27,624 bases of DNA from a virus, in IMG/VR virus record IMGVR_UViG_3300042484_000952, positions 1 to 27,624 of that record, one strand, 5' to 3'. Shown here piece after piece: positions 6,095 through 27,303 of the stretch (the first letter of the stretch is position 1; every line of letters begins with the position of its first letter). The notes under the pieces are model-generated. The model searched no databases and was not told where the DNA came from. It worked only from the letters and a program-made list of their open reading frames with translations. Made by a program: the position numbers and the translations under genes.

Positions 6095-6753
6095 TGTTTG
6101 TTAGCCGTAGATATACCGCCTTCGCAAATGCCGCAACTGATTACCTCAGTTTGGCAGATGCAAAAACCCATTTAAGGGTTACAAGTTCCTCAGATGATAC
6201 TTACATTTCGGGGCTTATCTCTATGGCAATTGATGCCTGCAGTAATTATTTGGGTTACTCAATTCGCAAAGGGACGGCAAAGTATGGCTTTGACTCATTT
6301 ACTGGCCAGCCTGCGCTCGTGAATCCCGTGAATGGACTCAATATACCTTCGGGCAATTATCTGCGCTTAAACACGCGCTGCTTGGCGATCAACTCTGTGA
6401 GCTATGTGAACGACTCGCAAACAGTTGTTGCTTTTGATTCTGGCGATTGGTTGGTTGCGCCTGATCCAATGGGCGGGTATTCTCGAAATATCTTTTTTGA
6501 AAACACGCCATCCTCAATAACGGACGATACAATTAAATATATTGTTGAAATTTCTGAGGGTTTTAATCCTGTCGGCACTTCTTCTGTAGATCCCGATACA
6601 ATTCTACCCGCTACGATTAAGCACGCGGCGCTGTTGTTGGTTGCACAGTATTACGATAACAGGCAGGCCATCATTGCGGGGAGTATTAACAGCGAAATGA
6701 ATTTCGGCTTTCACTACCTACTCGATCCGTACAAAATCCAAATCATGATCTGA
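6094..6753 (+). CDS. Head-tail connector protein, gp6/phiE125 gp8 type
   Basis: An adaptor that docks beneath the portal ring. The 219-residue protein begins with the typical connector helix-loop-helix YLSLADAKTHLRV followed by SSSDDTYISGLISMAIDACSNYLGY, which matches the gp6-like/phiE125 gp8 families; the C-terminal part (AALLLVAQYYDNRQAI) is the conserved last helix. It is longer than the minimal 100-residue gp6 because of a central beta insertion (residues 45-160). It overlaps both neighbours by one base in a tight connector operon. Confidence 0.85.
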   Translation: MFVSRRYTAFANAATDYLSLADAKTHLRVTSSSDDTYISGLISMAIDACSNYLGYSIRKGTAKYGFDSFTGQPALVNPVNGLNIPSGNYLRLNTRCLAINSVSYVNDSQTVVAFDSGDWLVAPDPMGGYSRNIFFENTPSSITDDTIKYIVEISEGFNPVGTSSVDPDTILPATIKHAALLLVAQYYDNRQAIIAGSINSEMNFGFHYLLDPYKIQIMI

Positions 6754-7073
6754 TGAATGCGGGATTAATGGATGTTTTGGTGAGCCTACAAAGTTACACC
6801 GAAACCATAGATACAAACACAGGCGAAAAGCTGCAAACGTGGACGGAATATGCAACCGCCTGGGCGCAGCGTGTTGAGCAGGAAAGTGGCGCCGAGAATG
6901 TAAACGCAGACAGGCGCGAGCATAAGCAAATTGTAATGTATACCATTCGTTTCAATTCTGCCGTAGGCGTTAAGCACAGGGTGGTTGATGACAATGGAGC
7001 GCACAACATTGTTAACATTGCAAACCTTCAGCGCAATCTATATTTGAAACTACAAACCGAATTAACGCAATAA
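6753..7073 (+). CDS. Head closure protein, SPP1 gp16/H-T joining family
   Basis: A head completion (stopper) protein that closes the connector after packaging. The 106-residue protein has the usual plan of this family: an opening MDVLVSLQSYTETIDTNTGE, a W-rich TWTEYATAWAQRVEQE, and a beta-barrel core MYTIRFNSAVGVKHRVVDDN followed by HNIVNI. Size and position between the gp6-like adaptor and the gp10-like protein support the call. It overlaps both neighbours by one base. Confidence 0.82.
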   Translation: MNAGLMDVLVSLQSYTETIDTNTGEKLQTWTEYATAWAQRVEQESGAENVNADRREHKQIVMYTIRFNSAVGVKHRVVDDNGAHNIVNIANLQRNLYLKLQTELTQ

Positions 7074-17301: not shown

Positions 17302-17861
17302 ATATAGCAGTACTAAAGGCCACGATGGCCGCCAAAAAATATGCCTTCTTTGAAGATGGCGAGTACAATTTAAATATTATCGGAATCCGTAATAGTTCCA
17401 CCGGCAACAAAGTAACCAATGCCTTTGACGATAAAATTGTAGTTGCTTACAAAATACAAAATACTTGGGTAGTAAAAGAATGGGCTGCAACAACTGATAA
17501 CGGCGGCGGAACTGCTCGCTTGGTTGCAAATCAGTACAGAGGTAGCCACGCCATTGGATTGCATCAGGGCAAATATGAGGCATTAAAACAATGCGGCCCT
17601 GTAACCGTCTACCGGGATTACACCAAAGACGGAATTTATCAAACCGATAAGACCGAAACAGGCGTTTTTGGTATCAATATTCACAAGGCTGGAGTTGACA
17701 GTGTCCGGGTGGATGACTGGAGCCACGGCTGCCAAGTGTTCAAACGCGTTGCAGATTTCAACGAGTTTATGGCACTCGCAAAAAAAGCGGCCACCATTCA
17801 CGGCAACCGCTTCACTTACACTTTGCTCGAATCTAAAGACCTTATTCAGCCGTTGGGTTAA
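17298..17861 (+). CDS. Endolysin, YkuD-like (L,D-transpeptidase fold)
   Basis: Probably the peptidoglycan-degrading enzyme of the lysis cassette. The 187-residue protein carries the YkuD catalytic pattern: H129 in FGINIHKAG and SHGC at 142-145 with C145 as the likely nucleophile. Upstream, QYRGSHAIGLHQGKYEALKQ and VTVYRDYTKDG match phage proteins of this type, from memory. It has no signal peptide, so release would depend on the holin. L,D-transpeptidases usually build cross-links, so a phage copy is most simply read as one turned to hydrolysis. Its 3-prime end overlaps the end of recT, on the other strand, by 20 bases. Confidence 0.75.
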   Translation: MNIAVLKATMAAKKYAFFEDGEYNLNIIGIRNSSTGNKVTNAFDDKIVVAYKIQNTWVVKEWAATTDNGGGTARLVANQYRGSHAIGLHQGKYEALKQCGPVTVYRDYTKDGIYQTDKTETGVFGINIHKAGVDSVRVDDWSHGCQVFKRVADFNEFMALAKKAATIHGNRFTYTLLESKDLIQPLG

Positions 17862-18429
17862 TTAGCTTAGCGTTGATCGCTGCAACCCCTGCGGGCTCTT
17901 CGTGTTGGATATCTACCACCTCATCAACGCTATGCATCCCCATTGTAATTTCGGGGGCGTAGAGACGGCCAAAGAAAGCGGCGGCCCTGTAGCGCATCAT
18001 TAGCTCGGGCATTGTTTTCCATTTGCTGCCTGCCTTGCTTACCCACCCCTCAGCGTTTGCCATTGCCATCGTAACGGCGGGGCCTTCTACGGTCTCGCCT
18101 GTTGCCTTTTCGGTGGCCACTGCCTTAATACCTTTGTCAAGATCACCAACAAAGCGCAGGGCGGTGAACTTTCCGCAGCCGTTTATTGCAGCAATCACGA
18201 ATGTACTGGACCAACTCGGACGCCCGTGAATGATGTGAAGGTTTTGCATAACCATAAGCGGAGAGGCTCCGATGCGGTTTGCAATTTCGAGGGCTACCAA
18301 TGTATTGGCTACGTTGCCTTTGTATTGTTGTGGCACCAAGTCTGAAGCGCTCAGGGCTTTCGCTTGGCGTTGGGCCAACTCGAAGCTGCTGAGTGGCGCG
18401 GGGTTTGTTTCTGTTATTTCTGTGCTCAT
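17842..18429 (-). CDS. recT: RecT-family single-strand annealing protein
   Basis: Anneals complementary single strands during phage recombination. The 195-residue protein has the RecT core: SASDLVPQQYKGNVANTLVA, ALEIANRIGASPLMVMQNLH, IIHGRPSWSSTFVIAAING (68-84), and the C-terminal KWKTMPELMMRYRAAAFFGR followed by APEITMGMHSVDEV. It is shorter than E. coli RecT (269 residues) because the N- and C-terminal extensions are missing. Its start overlaps the stop of the RecE-like nuclease gene by 4 bases, so exonuclease and annealing protein form one leftward operon. The end runs convergently into the endolysin gene with no terminator between. Confidence 0.93.
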   Translation of the reverse strand: MSTEITETNPAPLSSFELAQRQAKALSASDLVPQQYKGNVANTLVALEIANRIGASPLMVMQNLHIIHGRPSWSSTFVIAAINGCGKFTALRFVGDLDKGIKAVATEKATGETVEGPAVTMAMANAEGWVSKAGSKWKTMPELMMRYRAAAFFGRLYAPEITMGMHSVDEVVDIQHEEPAGVAAINAKLINPTAE

Positions 18430-19190
18430 AAAATTACCTTTGTTACAATTTCGCTATATCCGTGCCAGATTCCGCTTTTCTTACAAAAGCCGTAGGTCAT
18501 TAGATTTTTTTTGTATTTCTGTCTGGCTTCCTTTAGATCCTCGTTGCCGATGAAATACCAGCCAACTAAATAGGGCGGGTGCTTTTCAACAGCAACAAAA
18601 AAGAAACCGTTGCAGGGCTTTCCCGTGGCTTCCTCGAGCCCGTCGGAGTAAAATGCGGCCTGCACATCGTAGCGGTACTTTTTAACGCTCTGTGAGAAGC
18701 CGCGCGGGCTTGCGTCCTCTGTTGTTTTAAGGTCAATAATTACGTTGTCAGGCGTCAACCAATCGGGGCGAGCCTTGCAATCAATTTCGGTTTCTTCATC
18801 ATTCCAGTAAATGGGTTGCTCAGCGATGCCGTCTTTTAAAAGATACTGCGCCGTCCGATGACCGCGGACGCTTTCCATTATGCGCTCCACCATTGTGGCG
18901 CTTTCTGCATCCAGTGGAATTAGGCCCTGCGAGTGCTTGAGGAAATTGGCCCAGGTTTCTTTGCCTTCCTTTGTGCGTCGGTCGCAATGAGGGGCGACGG
19001 CATAGCGTTTGCCGAACTCAGCGGGCTCAAATACTGCACAATGAGCAGCGGAGCCAATGATTAGCGCAGGGGTTTCTTTCTGCGGTGAGGCGTTGGGGTT
19101 TAGATAGCGCTCGTAATAAAGTGCCGGGGCGCGATTAATTAGGTCGAGGCCGCTCTTTGAGACGCGGCTAATGTCTGTGTGGTACTGCAT
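18426..19190 (-). CDS. RecE-like PD-(D/E)XK exonuclease
   Basis: Probably resects double-strand ends to give the single strands used by RecT. The 254-residue protein has the RecE-type/PDDEXK_1 core: SKSGLDLINRAPALYYERYL, GSAAHCAVFEP (46-56), and the active site RPDW (D143), IIDLKTT (D153, K155) and YRYDVQAAFYSDGL (173-184). An upstream ATG at 19232 would add 14 residues (LQIYKKSD...), but 19190 lies eight bases after a minus-strand TAAATTTG element and gives a family-like start, so it is preferred. The frame also ends in a coupled ATGA with recT. Confidence 0.9.
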   Translation of the reverse strand: MQYHTDISRVSKSGLDLINRAPALYYERYLNPNASPQKETPALIIGSAAHCAVFEPAEFGKRYAVAPHCDRRTKEGKETWANFLKHSQGLIPLDAESATMVERIMESVRGHRTAQYLLKDGIAEQPIYWNDEETEIDCKARPDWLTPDNVIIDLKTTEDASPRGFSQSVKKYRYDVQAAFYSDGLEEATGKPCNGFFFVAVEKHPPYLVGWYFIGNEDLKEARQKYKKNLMTYGFCKKSGIWHGYSEIVTKVIL

Positions 19191-19193
19191 AAC

Positions 19194-19226
19194 ATTTGCA
19201 AATTTATCGCTTTTTTTGTAAATTTG
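19194..19226. promoter_or_regulatory. Divergent early control region
   Basis: Plus strand: TTTG (19195-19198), 20 bases, TAAATTTG (19219-19226), six bases, ATG of the HTH gene; this is a full consensus Bacteroidota promoter. Minus strand: TAAATTTG read from 19206 to 19199, eight bases before the nuclease ATG, with no clear -33. The box ATTTGCAAAT (19194-19203) is a perfect palindrome, and TTTTGTAAAT (19214-19223) starts exactly 20 bp further on. They cover the minus -7 and the plus -7 elements, so one bound repressor could control both directions. Confidence 0.65.
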
Positions 19227-19232
19227 TAGCAT

Positions 19233-20916: not shown

Positions 20917-21110
20917 TTGACCTACCAGAACAAACAATATCACTGCACATTTACAACGCTTGCTTCATGATCACCAACATTGAAGAGCGCGACAAAATGA
21001 GGGAATATATAAAAGTTGCCGAGCAGTACGAACTTTCACGACATTCAATAATAAAGCCAAATGATTACAGATTATTTACAACTATACAGCAGAGCGAGAC
21101 GCGAGAATAA
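20913..21110 (+). CDS. Unknown small early protein
   Basis: A 65-residue protein with no recognised domain: ISLHIYNACFMITNIEERDK, then a charged helix (MREYIKVAEQYELS) and a polar end. It starts in an ATGA overlap. Its stop TAA (21108-21110) is directly followed by GGAG, which forms a Shine-Dalgarno-like TAAGGAG six bases before the ATG at 21121. Confidence 0.6.
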   Translation: MIDLPEQTISLHIYNACFMITNIEERDKMREYIKVAEQYELSRHSIIKPNDYRLFTTIQQSETRE

Positions 21111-21120
21111 GGAGCTACAA

Positions 21121-21504
21121 ATGCGCATTCTTCAAATGACATCCAAATATGAGGCCGAGGTGGTAAGGTTGAAAAACGAACTACTTCGCCCACAGGTGAA
21201 ATTCACCAGCAAGATGGATGACTTCGCCAAGGTTATGCAATCCGTATGCATTGCCTGCGATGTAACTCCTGCGCAGTTGTTAAGCACTTCCAGGGAGGGC
21301 GACATTAAGGATGCCCGGCATATGTTGGTTTACATTCTGCGACAGCACTACGCCCTTCGCTATTCGGAAATCGGCCGCAGGTTGGGCCGTGATCACTCGA
21401 CAGCGATTAACAGTTATCAAAGAATGTCGGAGTTTTTGGAATACGATAAAGGAGTGCAGAAGATTTACAACACAGTAAAGGAGCTGCTGGGGATATGCAA
21501 TTAA
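21121..21504 (+). CDS. DnaA domain IV-like DNA-binding protein
   Basis: A 127-residue protein whose C-terminal two thirds resemble the DNA-binding domain IV of DnaA: DVTPAQLLSTSREGDIKDAR, HMLVYILRQHY, YSEIGRRLGR, then the signature DHSTAINSYQRM (91-102). The AAA+ part of DnaA is missing; an N-terminal coiled coil (about 5-22) takes its place. The start follows TAAGGAG; an ATG at 21061 in the same frame would add 20 residues, continue the coiled coil and overlap the previous gene by 50 bases. It sits before the helicase and primase, so it may mark the phage origin or recruit the helicase, or compete with host DnaA. Confidence 0.75.
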   Translation: MRILQMTSKYEAEVVRLKNELLRPQVKFTSKMDDFAKVMQSVCIACDVTPAQLLSTSREGDIKDARHMLVYILRQHYALRYSEIGRRLGRDHSTAINSYQRMSEFLEYDKGVQKIYNTVKELLGICN

Positions 21505-24356: not shown

Positions 24357-24529
24357 ATAAACCAACACACGCACGAATTGCCCACGTTGAAGTTACCGAA
24401 AACGGCATACTTATAAAAGCAATTCACCTACACGATAAAAATGGCGAGTATATTCGCGACGCTAAACTGAACGGGCAACTACTTTGCACGCTTACTGAGC
24501 ATTTACTCAAGATCACCATATGCAAATAA
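24353..24529 (+). CDS. Unknown 58-residue protein before the primase
   Basis: A 58-residue protein: MNKPTHARIAHVEVTENGIL, IKAIHLHDKNGEYIRDAKLN, GQLLCTLTEHLLKITICK. Mostly beta in the first half, with a final helix. Its ATG overlaps the previous stop, and the primase ATG lies 10 bases before its end, so translation is coupled. No family recognised. Confidence 0.6.
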   Translation: MNKPTHARIAHVEVTENGILIKAIHLHDKNGEYIRDAKLNGQLLCTLTEHLLKITICK

Positions 24530-26685
24530 CCTATCTGCCGAACATTAAACAGTCGGCAAAGCACCACACAATTACCATAGCGGATTATTTCGCCCTGGTG
24601 CGCTCAGGGCAACACTTGGCACTTATTGAAGCGTACAGGAATACAAAGGCGTTAAGTAAGGATGAGCAAGCCGAGGCAAAGCAGCGGATTCCAGCGGTTA
24701 CGATCTCGGGGGTGTTTAAAGACAATGTGAGCAACGCAAACCTCATTCAACACTCAGGGCTTATTTGTATTGATTTTGATGCTGTGGACGATGTGGCTCG
24801 ATTAAAGTCTGAACTGGCTAAAGATCCGTATACTTTTGCCGCTTTGCTATCCGTTTCGGGCAATGGGCTGGCAGCACTTGTTAAGATTGAGCCAGAGCGG
24901 CACCTTGACGCGTTCAATGGATTAAAACAGTATTATTTCCGCAACTACGGGCAACTGATTGATCAGAGTTGTAAGAATGTGAGCCGTCTGCGATTCCTGT
25001 CTTATGACCCATTACTTTATACCAACGAGCAAAGCAAGACCTTTAAAGAGTACCCTAAAAAGGAAGCCAAGCCAAAGCAAGTGCACACTGTACTAACTGG
25101 CAACGAATTTGATGAATTGATTGATAGGATTTGCCGGGGCGGTTATGATCTAACAGAGGGCGCTTACAAAAACTATCTCGATATTGGCTTTGCGCTGGCT
25201 TCAGAGTTTGGAGAGCGAGGCCGTGAGTATTTCCACGCCATCGCCGCCCAAAATTCAAAATACGACCATATTAAGGCCGATAGACAGTATAATTATTGCC
25301 TACGAGATACAGGCCAGAGCAAGATTGCAATCGGCACATTTTACTATTATGCTAAACAGGCAGGCGTTGAGTTAAAAAGCCAGCAGGCTGTGAAGTTGGA
25401 GAACATTGCAAAAATGGCCAAAAAGCAAGGGCGTGCTCAGGAGTCGGTGGTTGAGATTGCCCGGCTGTCTGGCATGGACGTTGAAAAGGCCACAGAGACC
25501 GCCGCCGCAGTTTTTGAGGCTAACGTTTCGCTGCAGCTCACGGGCCAGACGCCCGTAGCGCTATGCCAGTTGTATCTATCCAACAATCACCAACTGCACT
25601 ATAACACGATCACCGCAGATATTGAGGACCGCGCTGTAACATTTAACAACAGGCCGAAGCAAATCGATGATATGTCGTTAAATACGATGTATTTGAAATT
25701 TTCAGAATTAACAGACAACAAAATATCATTTGAGTTTTTTTGCCGCGTGATCTATTCCGAAATGACCCGCTATTACAACCCATTCGAGGACTTTTTAAAG
25801 GCTAATGAGTCAGTACAGCGCAGCCAGCAAATTATTGAAGAGTTGGCCGCTTGCATCGAAACAACCACGCCCCACGTTGCCAAATATCTCACTCACTGGG
25901 GCGTTGGAATGATTGCCAGCGTTTACGGCCACACCTCGCCCCTGGTATTGGTATTGGCAGGCGAGCGCCAAAATACGGGTAAAACTGAGTTTTTTAGGCG
26001 TCTGCTTCCTAAGCCACTCGCCAACTACTACGCAGAGTCTAAACTAGATGGGGGCAAAGATGACGATATTTTGCTGACAAAAAAACTGATCATAATGGAC
26101 GATGAATTTGGGGGTAAATCAAAGTTTGAGGCCAAACGATTTAAGGAGTTAACGAGTAAGGCGTCATTTTCAATTCGCTTGCCTTATGGGCGTACGCACC
26201 GGGATCTGAAGCGCTTGGCTGTCTTAGCAGGAACTACAAACGACTTGGGCCTTATCTCGGACCCTACAGGCAACCGTCGAATCCTGCCTATTAATGTGCT
26301 CGGCATCAATCACCCGGCATACAACGCAATTGACAAAACCGCGCTATTCATGGCCTTCTATGACCTATATCAATCAGGGTTCAATTGGCACCTTTCGAGT
26401 GAGGATATACTACAACTAAACGAAAATAGCACGGAATTTAATGCAATTAATTTTGAGGCGGAATTAATAAACCAATATTTTCGCGTTCCGCAAAATGGTG
26501 ATTACAGCGATTATTTAACAAATACAGAATTGAAAATATATCTCGAGGTAAACAGCCAACAGCGGATTTTTGACACTCGAAAGTTGGGGATGGAAATGAA
26601 AAATTTGGGCTTTCAACAAGTGAAAAGGAAGGTCAATGGATCAACAATGCGCTGCTATGCGGTTGTAAAAATAGCCAGACAATGA
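24520..26685 (+). CDS. VirE-type primase-helicase replication protein
   Basis: Probably the main phage replication initiator. The 721-residue protein begins with a VirE N-terminal/BT4734-like primase-fold domain (about 1-185: GLICIDFDAVDD with acidic pair at 85-87, SVSGNGLAALVKI, SRLRFLSYDP). A PriCT-like linker follows (about 215-280: YKNYLDIGFALASEFGERGR). The C-terminal VirE-type P-loop ATPase (about 440-720) has Walker A GERQNTGKT (481-489), Walker B KKLIIMDDEFG (521-531) and GTTNDLGLISDPTGNRRILP (571-590) with a likely arginine finger. It combines priming and unwinding, as in other Bacteroidota mobile elements. The repeat array at 26697-26940 directly follows. Confidence 0.88.
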   Translation: MQITYLPNIKQSAKHHTITIADYFALVRSGQHLALIEAYRNTKALSKDEQAEAKQRIPAVTISGVFKDNVSNANLIQHSGLICIDFDAVDDVARLKSELAKDPYTFAALLSVSGNGLAALVKIEPERHLDAFNGLKQYYFRNYGQLIDQSCKNVSRLRFLSYDPLLYTNEQSKTFKEYPKKEAKPKQVHTVLTGNEFDELIDRICRGGYDLTEGAYKNYLDIGFALASEFGERGREYFHAIAAQNSKYDHIKADRQYNYCLRDTGQSKIAIGTFYYYAKQAGVELKSQQAVKLENIAKMAKKQGRAQESVVEIARLSGMDVEKATETAAAVFEANVSLQLTGQTPVALCQLYLSNNHQLHYNTITADIEDRAVTFNNRPKQIDDMSLNTMYLKFSELTDNKISFEFFCRVIYSEMTRYYNPFEDFLKANESVQRSQQIIEELAACIETTTPHVAKYLTHWGVGMIASVYGHTSPLVLVLAGERQNTGKTEFFRRLLPKPLANYYAESKLDGGKDDDILLTKKLIIMDDEFGGKSKFEAKRFKELTSKASFSIRLPYGRTHRDLKRLAVLAGTTNDLGLISDPTGNRRILPINVLGINHPAYNAIDKTALFMAFYDLYQSGFNWHLSSEDILQLNENSTEFNAINFEAELINQYFRVPQNGDYSDYLTNTELKIYLEVNSQQRIFDTRKLGMEMKNLGFQQVKRKVNGSTMRCYAVVKIARQ

Positions 26686-26696
26686 AAAACCAATTT

Positions 26697-26940
26697 TCTC
26701 TGACCACCTCTGAGCCCAATGTTTGTAAGGGTTTGACCAAAAGGTGGTCAGAGAGGCACGTAAAAAACATAACTTCCCTAGAAAAATATTTTTTCAATTT
26801 CCATTTTTTTTATTTTGTAGTTCTGGAAAAGTCTTTGACTTTCTCTGACCACCTGACCACCTTTCGACTTGCGCCCAATGATAGCGCGCCTCTAGAGGTG
26901 GTCAGAGAGCTTTTTTTTCTCTGACCACCCTCTGACCACC
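26697..26940. repeat. Duplicated inverted-repeat array, origin candidate
   Basis: The 11-mer CTCTGACCACC occurs on the plus strand at 26698, 26843, 26919 and 26930 (the last two in direct tandem) and on the minus strand at 26743-26753 and 26897-26907; a partial TGACCACC is at 26854-26861. Two modules have the same order: 11-mer, GCCCAATG (26714-26721; 26873-26880), inverted 11-mer. Between them 26759-26840 is about three quarters A/T. A third perfect 12-bp hairpin is 26897-26908 with 26918-26929, with a T-run in its loop. Iterons, AT-rich core and adjacency to the primase gene suggest a replication origin. Confidence 0.7.
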
Positions 26941-26967: not shown

Positions 26968-27303
26968 ATGACTGAGGATAAAATACAGCAGGAAATTATA
27001 ATTTATTATCGAAATACTTTTCAAAGGGTTTATAAGAGTTGTTTAATCTTTAGCATACCTAACGGAGGGCTAAGGGATAAGCGCACGGCCATGCTGATGA
27101 AGGCCACAGGATTAACACCAGGGGCGAGTGATTTAATTGTGATATACTTTGGTAAGTTGCTATTCGTTGAAGTCAAGACATCGACAGGCACGCAATCAGA
27201 AGAGCAGAAGGTATTTGCTCAGCGTGTTAGAGACTGTGGTTTTGATTATCATTTGGTGCGATCACTGCTAGACTTTAAACTGTTACTCACATGCCAACAA
27301 TAA
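26968..27303 (+). CDS. VRR-NUC nuclease
   Basis: A 111-residue stand-alone VRR-NUC domain, a PD-(D/E)XK-type nuclease that in phages probably resolves branched DNA. Motifs: SIPNGGLRDKR (29-39), the metal site TPGASDLIVI (D55), LFVEVKT (E68, K70), then SEEQKVFAQRVRDCGFDYHL with the family Gln and the YHLVRS strand. Length is typical of phage VRR-NUC proteins. It may assist in preparing concatemers for packaging. Overlaps the HNH gene by 13 bases. Confidence 0.9.
   Translation: MTEDKIQQEIIIYYRNTFQRVYKSCLIFSIPNGGLRDKRTAMLMKATGLTPGASDLIVIYFGKLLFVEVKTSTGTQSEEQKVFAQRVRDCGFDYHLVRSLLDFKLLLTCQQ

Follow-up and report, generated by a model that had tools for sequence, protein, structure and literature searches.

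A convergent repeat array directly behind a phage primase gene: a probable replication origin exchanged together with the end of its putative reader

The window, that is, the whole 27,624-base stretch of viral DNA analysed here, encodes a terminase of its own (TerS and TerL), and in several relatives its end is joined to its start (27624/1) with 11 extra bases, the junction being flanked by an HNH gene and, on its opposite side, by TerS. Because relatives link end to start in this way, all of a 27.6-kb cos phage genome is probably present in the window, except for a putative overhang of 11 bases. A scan of bacterial genomes gave just two relatives, both distant and lying in MAGs labelled Chitinophagaceae and Bacteroidia, and the host, probably a member of the Bacteroidota, was therefore inferred through cultured relatives. 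The minus strand of 17842-19232 carries an ORF with a weak match to RecT next to a DUF3799 exonuclease, a short block in an otherwise plus-strand genome. The locus of interest comprises a primase-helicase gene, an array of short repeats and a VRR-NUC gene; these features and a DnaA-like gene are as follows:

21061-21504, plus strand: Bac_DnaA_C-like protein (domain E 6e-16), rejected below as reader of the repeated word
24520-26685, plus strand: primase-helicase (BT4734-like_N, PriCT_2 and VapE-like, by domain matches and fold), the proposed origin-binding initiator
26452-26682, plus strand: C-terminal winged-helix domain of the primase, residues 645-721, from the predicted structure
26611-26652, plus strand: wing region, residues 698-711 including K702, which best separates same-word from different-word phages
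26698-26708, plus strand: iteron 1 (CTCTGACCACC, exact match), left set
26743-26753, minus strand: iteron 2 (CTCTGACCACC, exact match), inner left box, directed at the core
26754-26842, no strand: AT-rich core, presumed DNA-unwinding element
26843-26853, plus strand: iteron 3 (CTCTGACCACC, exact match), first box on the right of the core
26854-26861, plus strand: iteron 4, a partial copy, TGACCACC, without the CTC prefix, 8 bp from iteron 3
26897-26907, minus strand: iteron 5 (CTCTGACCACC, exact match), inverted copy, right set
26919-26929, plus strand: iteron 6 (CTCTGACCACC, exact match)
26930-26940, plus strand: iteron 7 (CTCTGACCACC, exact match), in tandem with iteron 6 at an 11-bp period
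26968-27303, plus strand: VRR-NUC gene, directly behind the array; a cassette boundary, outside the origin

Six exact CTCTGACCACC boxes and one TGACCACC half-box, in the pattern < > core << > <<, fall within 26698-26940, and no further exact copy occurs elsewhere in the 27,624-base record. These coordinates bear out the initial annotation, which had described six perfect boxes (four plus, two minus) and one partial copy. The first box begins 12 bases past the end of the primase gene, and 27 bases separate the last from the start of VRR-NUC. With up to two mismatches allowed, CTCTGACCACC has nine matches, compared with 3.1 ± 1.8 in shuffled sequence, and nine were reached in 0 of 100 shuffles; the commonest 7-mer occurs seven times in the 350 bases behind the primase. 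The AT-rich separator, put earlier at about 80 bases, is AT-rich as described but measures 89 bp between the 11-mers and 97 bp between the 7-mer cores, the latter stretch being 72% AT compared with 62% across the array region. A second shared word, GCCCAATG, is present in both halves of the array, and stems of at least 12 bp can form, both as first reported: the inverted arms I5 and I6 are perfect over 13 bp, and iterons 5 and 6 make up a 12-bp inverted repeat (I10) with a 9-nt loop. An ORF on the plus strand (26682-26924) spans the array. It has no family match, and its variable sites are spread 17/17/16 over codon positions, where the primase gene end shows 2/1/29; it was rejected as a gene on these grounds, in keeping with the view that the array is non-coding. 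A turning point in GC skew, which had been suggested as a check on this site, is absent, as the cumulative skew climbs almost throughout the genome and is uninformative.

Relatives were gathered from viral-contig scans as 140 distinct loci, each containing the primase and 200 bases or more of the DNA that follows, and an array was called where the commonest 7-mer reached five or more copies in the 350 bases behind the primase. By this measure an array follows the primase stop in 98 of 140 loci, compared with 22 of 2,891 control 350-base windows elsewhere in the same loci; in 42 of 140, no 7-mer reaches five copies behind the primase. A search beside related primases, which the initial annotation had suggested, thus finds arrays to be general, but the word itself differs among relatives. 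Array words include TGACCACC, TGTACACC, TGTAACAGG, TGTAGAAAG, TGTAACTTT, TGTAGTCA, TTACCACC, TGTGCCAAC, TGAGACCAGC and others, giving 28 distinct canonical 7-mers, or about 17 groups once overlapping words are merged. On a tree built from primase residues 1-640 (FastTree; many forks are weak), the word changes 22 times or more. The inner boxes are convergent in 80 of 97 loci, around a core with a median length of 96 bp (IQR 86-97) and an AT fraction of 0.72, compared with 0.63 for the array region (97 loci). Other elements of the window array are less constant: TGTACACC phages lack GCCCAATG, L016, L017 and L034 carry an altered form of it, and many relatives are without the left inverted copy, their left set consisting of two or three direct boxes. 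Since only the general geometry persists, we regard both as lineage features, and the arrangement box-GCCCAATG-inverted box, first read as a general module, does not extend past the closest relatives. The gene behind the array varies by lineage (VRR-NUC, ResIII helicase or NUMOD4-HNH) and the gene in front is always the primase, so the array belongs with the primase. In many lineages with unlike words, an inverted box and the direct box that follows it are 23-26 bp apart and enclose an A/T tract (window 26897-26929 and its equivalents). In L011 (6166-8400), the sequence jumps within the right inverted box, at an offset of about 216 past the primase stop, to an inverted copy of the primase gene that is 87.6% identical, reflecting either an assembly chimera or an inverted duplication.

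Named phages and satellites present a mixed picture. Flavobacterium phage FPSV-S1 carries nine copies of GTGTAAC between VapE and VRR-NUC, Flavobacterium phage mymlan6-1 (L211) has a AGGTAACC array, and P12024S has a weak one. The satellite Javan21 shows a weak array behind its VapE-type gene. Two more distant cases, the Lactococcus satellite bIL312 and S. thermophilus SW30, show clear repeats behind the helicase gene. No array was found behind the VapE-type genes of Xanthomonas phage Murka and Cellulophaga phi38:2, nor behind the primase (37% identical) of Cellulophaga phi46:1 (L215), whose origin must therefore lie elsewhere or be of another kind. In mymlan6-1 (L211 3699-4262) a gene annotated as a nuclease (HWC94_gp41) sits within the array and separates the first iteron pair from the rest, and in L040 a NUMOD4-HNH gene (6361-6927) lies directly behind the array; homing-type nucleases at such sites are reminiscent of Odn and PLE.

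Among PDB entries, the predicted structure of the primase is most like PriRep1 bound to dsDNA (E 1e-13; Z 24.7 across 380 aa, a likeness of fold only), a staphylococcal VapE-type helicase whose structure was solved on dsDNA; against the SaPI5 primase-helicase, Z was 12. At the C-terminus, AlphaFold predicts a winged helix with helices at residues 645-653, 668-679 and 686-695 and strands at 664-666, 700-705 and 708-717, mostly at a pLDDT of 83-89. Taken alone, this domain is nearest to RFX5 (Z 8.0) and RFX1 (Z 6.8), and it also matches the origin-binding domain of P4 (Z 5.9 over 72 aa). For a single domain, Z scores of 6-8 are modest, and a common fold does not imply a common function. The matches of this domain came from VIA-align, and Foldseek returned none under E 0.001 for the C-terminal domain alone. 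In RFX1 it is the wing that contacts the major groove (PMC8998557, PMC2533330). The RFX DNA-binding domain (PDB 1DP7, 8ZJR) is thus both the nearest fold and one whose wing reads DNA (PMC8998557), but it belongs to a eukaryotic transcription factor and the likeness is of fold alone.

Several comparisons point to this C-terminal domain as the part of the phage that tracks the repeated word. Between thirteen TGACCACC phages and two TGTACACC phages (L015 and L028), the primase differs without overlap at two of 721 positions, K702R and A/S719N, and the same two positions emerged from a 14-phage comparison. Seven neighbouring genes, including that for the DnaA-like protein, have zero residues separating TGACCACC from TGTACACC in both TGTACACC phages tested. 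In a second group, three word contrasts place 3 of 4, 6 of 8 and 7 of 9 separating columns within the last 45 residues. Residues 694-715 best split same-word from different-word pairs, with an AUC of 0.95, the median over the whole protein being 0.65. This comparison covered 201 same-word and 64 different-word pairs of 85% identity or more, which are not independent of one another. From the positions of the AlphaFold elements, the word-tracking stretch is the predicted wing rather than the usual recognition helix. We consider the wing the probable reader of the repeated word, and infer from co-variation and fold that its residues, approximately 698-711, provide much of the sequence specificity. 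Same or similar words (TGTAGTCA, TTACCACC, TGTAAC) also occur in distant lineages (L128, L144, L122, L086, L018 and L064) with unlike wings, and a search by eye for a convergent amino-acid code among distant lineages with a common word saw none.

The array and the adjoining tip of the primase gene appear to travel as one piece. L015 and L028 share about 87% DNA identity over most of the primase, as do any two members of the group, and they are not sisters on the primase tree (support 91-92, not starred). Between a point some 150 bases ahead of the primase stop and one 260 bases past it, identity rises to 97-100% (93% in the AT-rich core), returning to background within VRR-NUC; between different-word pairs it falls to 67-69% in the box regions. 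Because the two are near-identical here and at background elsewhere, the comparison demonstrates, at the level of sequence, a joint exchange of the primase gene end and the array in a tract of about 0.4 kb. Initiator and origin would then probably act as one swappable lock-and-key cassette, with reading by the primase tip probable.

Such an exchange raises the question of whether the association between word and wing reflects linkage alone, with adjacent DNA exchanged and no functional match between wing and boxes. Linkage does account for part of the association, because wing and array adjoin and were exchanged together. The TGACCACC/TGTACACC contrast shows no significant excess of amino-acid changes at the tip (2 N, 6 S; p 0.28), and in the L021/L022 group (L021-L029) part of a VRR-like gene, about 500-700 bases past the primase stop, co-segregates with the word as well, with 16 residues separating TGTAGAAAG from TGTAACTTT phages. 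Against linkage as the whole explanation, no residue of VRR-NUC, equally near on the other side of the array, separates the words within the window group, the association is strongest over the wing of a domain that binds DNA, and the tip is enriched in amino-acid-changing substitutions in four of five different-word contrasts (p 0.011-0.022). We therefore judge linkage alone unlikely, and selection on the match between wing and word is supported, if not proven.

A second possibility is that the hairpins matter and the word is secondary, the array being a stem-loop origin or a single-strand initiation site. Plasmid pRN1 offers a precedent, as its replication requires a stem-loop downstream of the primase-helicase gene (PMC4234260), and the window could form comparable stems, namely the I5 and I6 arms and the I10 pair; the spacing of the inverted copy from the next box also recurs across lineages with unlike words. 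These stems are not independent evidence, however, because any inverted copy of a common box pairs automatically. Moreover, the left stem is not conserved, its inverted copy being replaced by direct boxes in many relatives, and the co-segregation of the wing points to reading of sequence, so that we find a stem-loop origin improbable.

It is less probable still that the boxes form an origin read by the DnaA-like helix-turn-helix protein, the binder that had been suggested at first alongside the primase-helicase. Related cultured phages likewise encode a Bac_DnaA_C domain, and the words TTACCACC and TGACCACC loosely resemble DnaA boxes. However, the array moves with the primase gene, and the window, L015 and L007 have one and the same DnaA domain across two words. 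Because its DNA-binding part does not change with the word, we rejected both this protein as the reader and a DnaA-box origin. Operators or a transcription terminator of the primase operon would suit an intergenic site with hairpins and T-runs, but seven boxes over 243 bp in convergent sets around a fixed core of about 96 bp, kept in very diverged phages, are not the layout of operators, and the T-run sits in the loop rather than behind the stem; this explanation has very little to recommend it. Least probable of all is a cosB-like packaging signal recognized by the small terminase subunit. About 0.7 kb separates the array from the end of the genome, where a cos junction is probable and TerS follows immediately, but in many relatives a helicase gene, not packaging genes, follows the array, and the genes from the array to the genome end hold no separating residues.

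The reading that we prefer, a replication origin recognized by the primase, has its closest parallel in staphylococcal pathogenicity islands and related PICI satellites. There, an AT-rich region between iteron sets lies immediately 3' of the gene for the initiator-helicase (PMC6092414, PMC7581432; Ubeda et al. 2007 as cited in PMC7581432), and SaPI Rep and Cch2 use their C-terminal domains to bind iterons just behind their own genes (PMC7581432). The window type shares the position immediately 3' of the gene for the putative initiator, the two iteron sets on either side of an AT-rich region (median 96 bp, 72% AT), the element-specific words, a VapE/D5-like helicase initiator (from the VapE-like domain and the PriRep1 fold, in fold only) and, with indirect support from the tracking of the word, the assignment of specificity to the C-terminal domain. 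In each feature that sequence or fold could address, the SaPI/PICI organisation thus appears to be matched. There are differences: the window primase has a BT4734-like AEP and PriCT-2 fused to the helicase, one iteron set contains a conserved inverted copy, word turnover is traced to the wing, and the window is apparently a complete tailed phage, probably of Bacteroidota. A PICI is a satellite that relies on a helper phage for structural and packaging genes, the large terminase among them. We rejected assignment of the window as a PICI element because it carries its own terminase, TerS and TerL, and an apparently complete cos genome.

Other systems share individual parts of this arrangement. 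Phage P4 has two separate sites, ori and crr. Its alpha protein is likewise a primase-helicase with a C-terminal winged-helix origin-binding domain (PDB 1KA8, Z 5.9), but of another primase type. SCCmec Cch2 is a helicase of the D5 type that uses its C-terminal domain to bind direct repeats just behind its operon (PMC7581432), differing in its three 5-nt iterons and separate polymerase-type primase. In PLE of Vibrio cholerae, iterons co-vary with the DNA-binding domain of the initiator, and escape from an origin-directed nuclease is documented (PMC8263062); however, its RepA_N initiator lacks primase and helicase, the ori lies apart from repA and the iterons are about 30 bp (PMC7145576, PMC8263062).

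The array, its position and geometry, the turnover of its word, the co-segregation of the wing, the cassette boundaries and the predicted fold were computed directly. Comparison strongly supports the origin of iterons and unwinding element, tied to a VirE/VapE-type primase-helicase, that was first suggested here: arrays lie behind related primases, the layout is PICI/SaPI-like and the word is tracked by the C-terminus of the primase. Replication of the phage very probably starts at these repeats. We propose with good confidence, by analogy and from these comparisons, that the array is a SaPI/PICI-like phage origin, that the primase binds its iterons through the C-terminal winged helix, and that wing and array form an exchangeable cassette. 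Weighing against this proposal are the loci that fall short of five copies, phi46:1 with its bare primase, the recurrence of words beside unlike wings, the part of the co-segregation due to linkage and the lack of a skew turning point. As co-variation and fold suggest, the winged helix would bind the boxes with its wing in the major groove; primase hexamers would assemble on the two convergent iteron sets, given their geometry and the SaPI precedent; and the AT-rich core would presumably melt. Judging from its domain content, the helicase may load itself, with the fused AEP domain priming. The cassette would consist of the last 22-50 or so primase codons and the array, and because the specificity part of the primase gene adjoins the array, the word could be replaced in all boxes at once, leaving the rest of the enzyme unchanged.

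The origins of Bacteroidota tailed phages seem largely unmapped, as far as an incomplete literature shows, and our comparison yields a rule for finding them: 3' of BT4734/VapE primases, convergent iterons should be sought around an AT-rich core of about 96 bp. A layout described as unique to PICI satellites would thereby extend to complete phages. More tentatively, and with the balance tilted somewhat against it, the family may hold many alternative wing/iteron specificities at one locus as exchangeable cassettes, with selection favouring a word unlike those of competitors and natural pairs amounting to a recognition code for a wing-reading winged helix. We speculate, by analogy, that such competitors could be co-infecting relatives, satellites, or origin-directed or homing nucleases, as with Odn on PLE; escape of the PLE kind is one possible reason for word turnover, a speculative one for the window phages. 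Nature also supplies near-identical initiator pairs with different words, such as K702R with TGACCACC to TGTACACC, in which a change of origin specificity would be directly testable.
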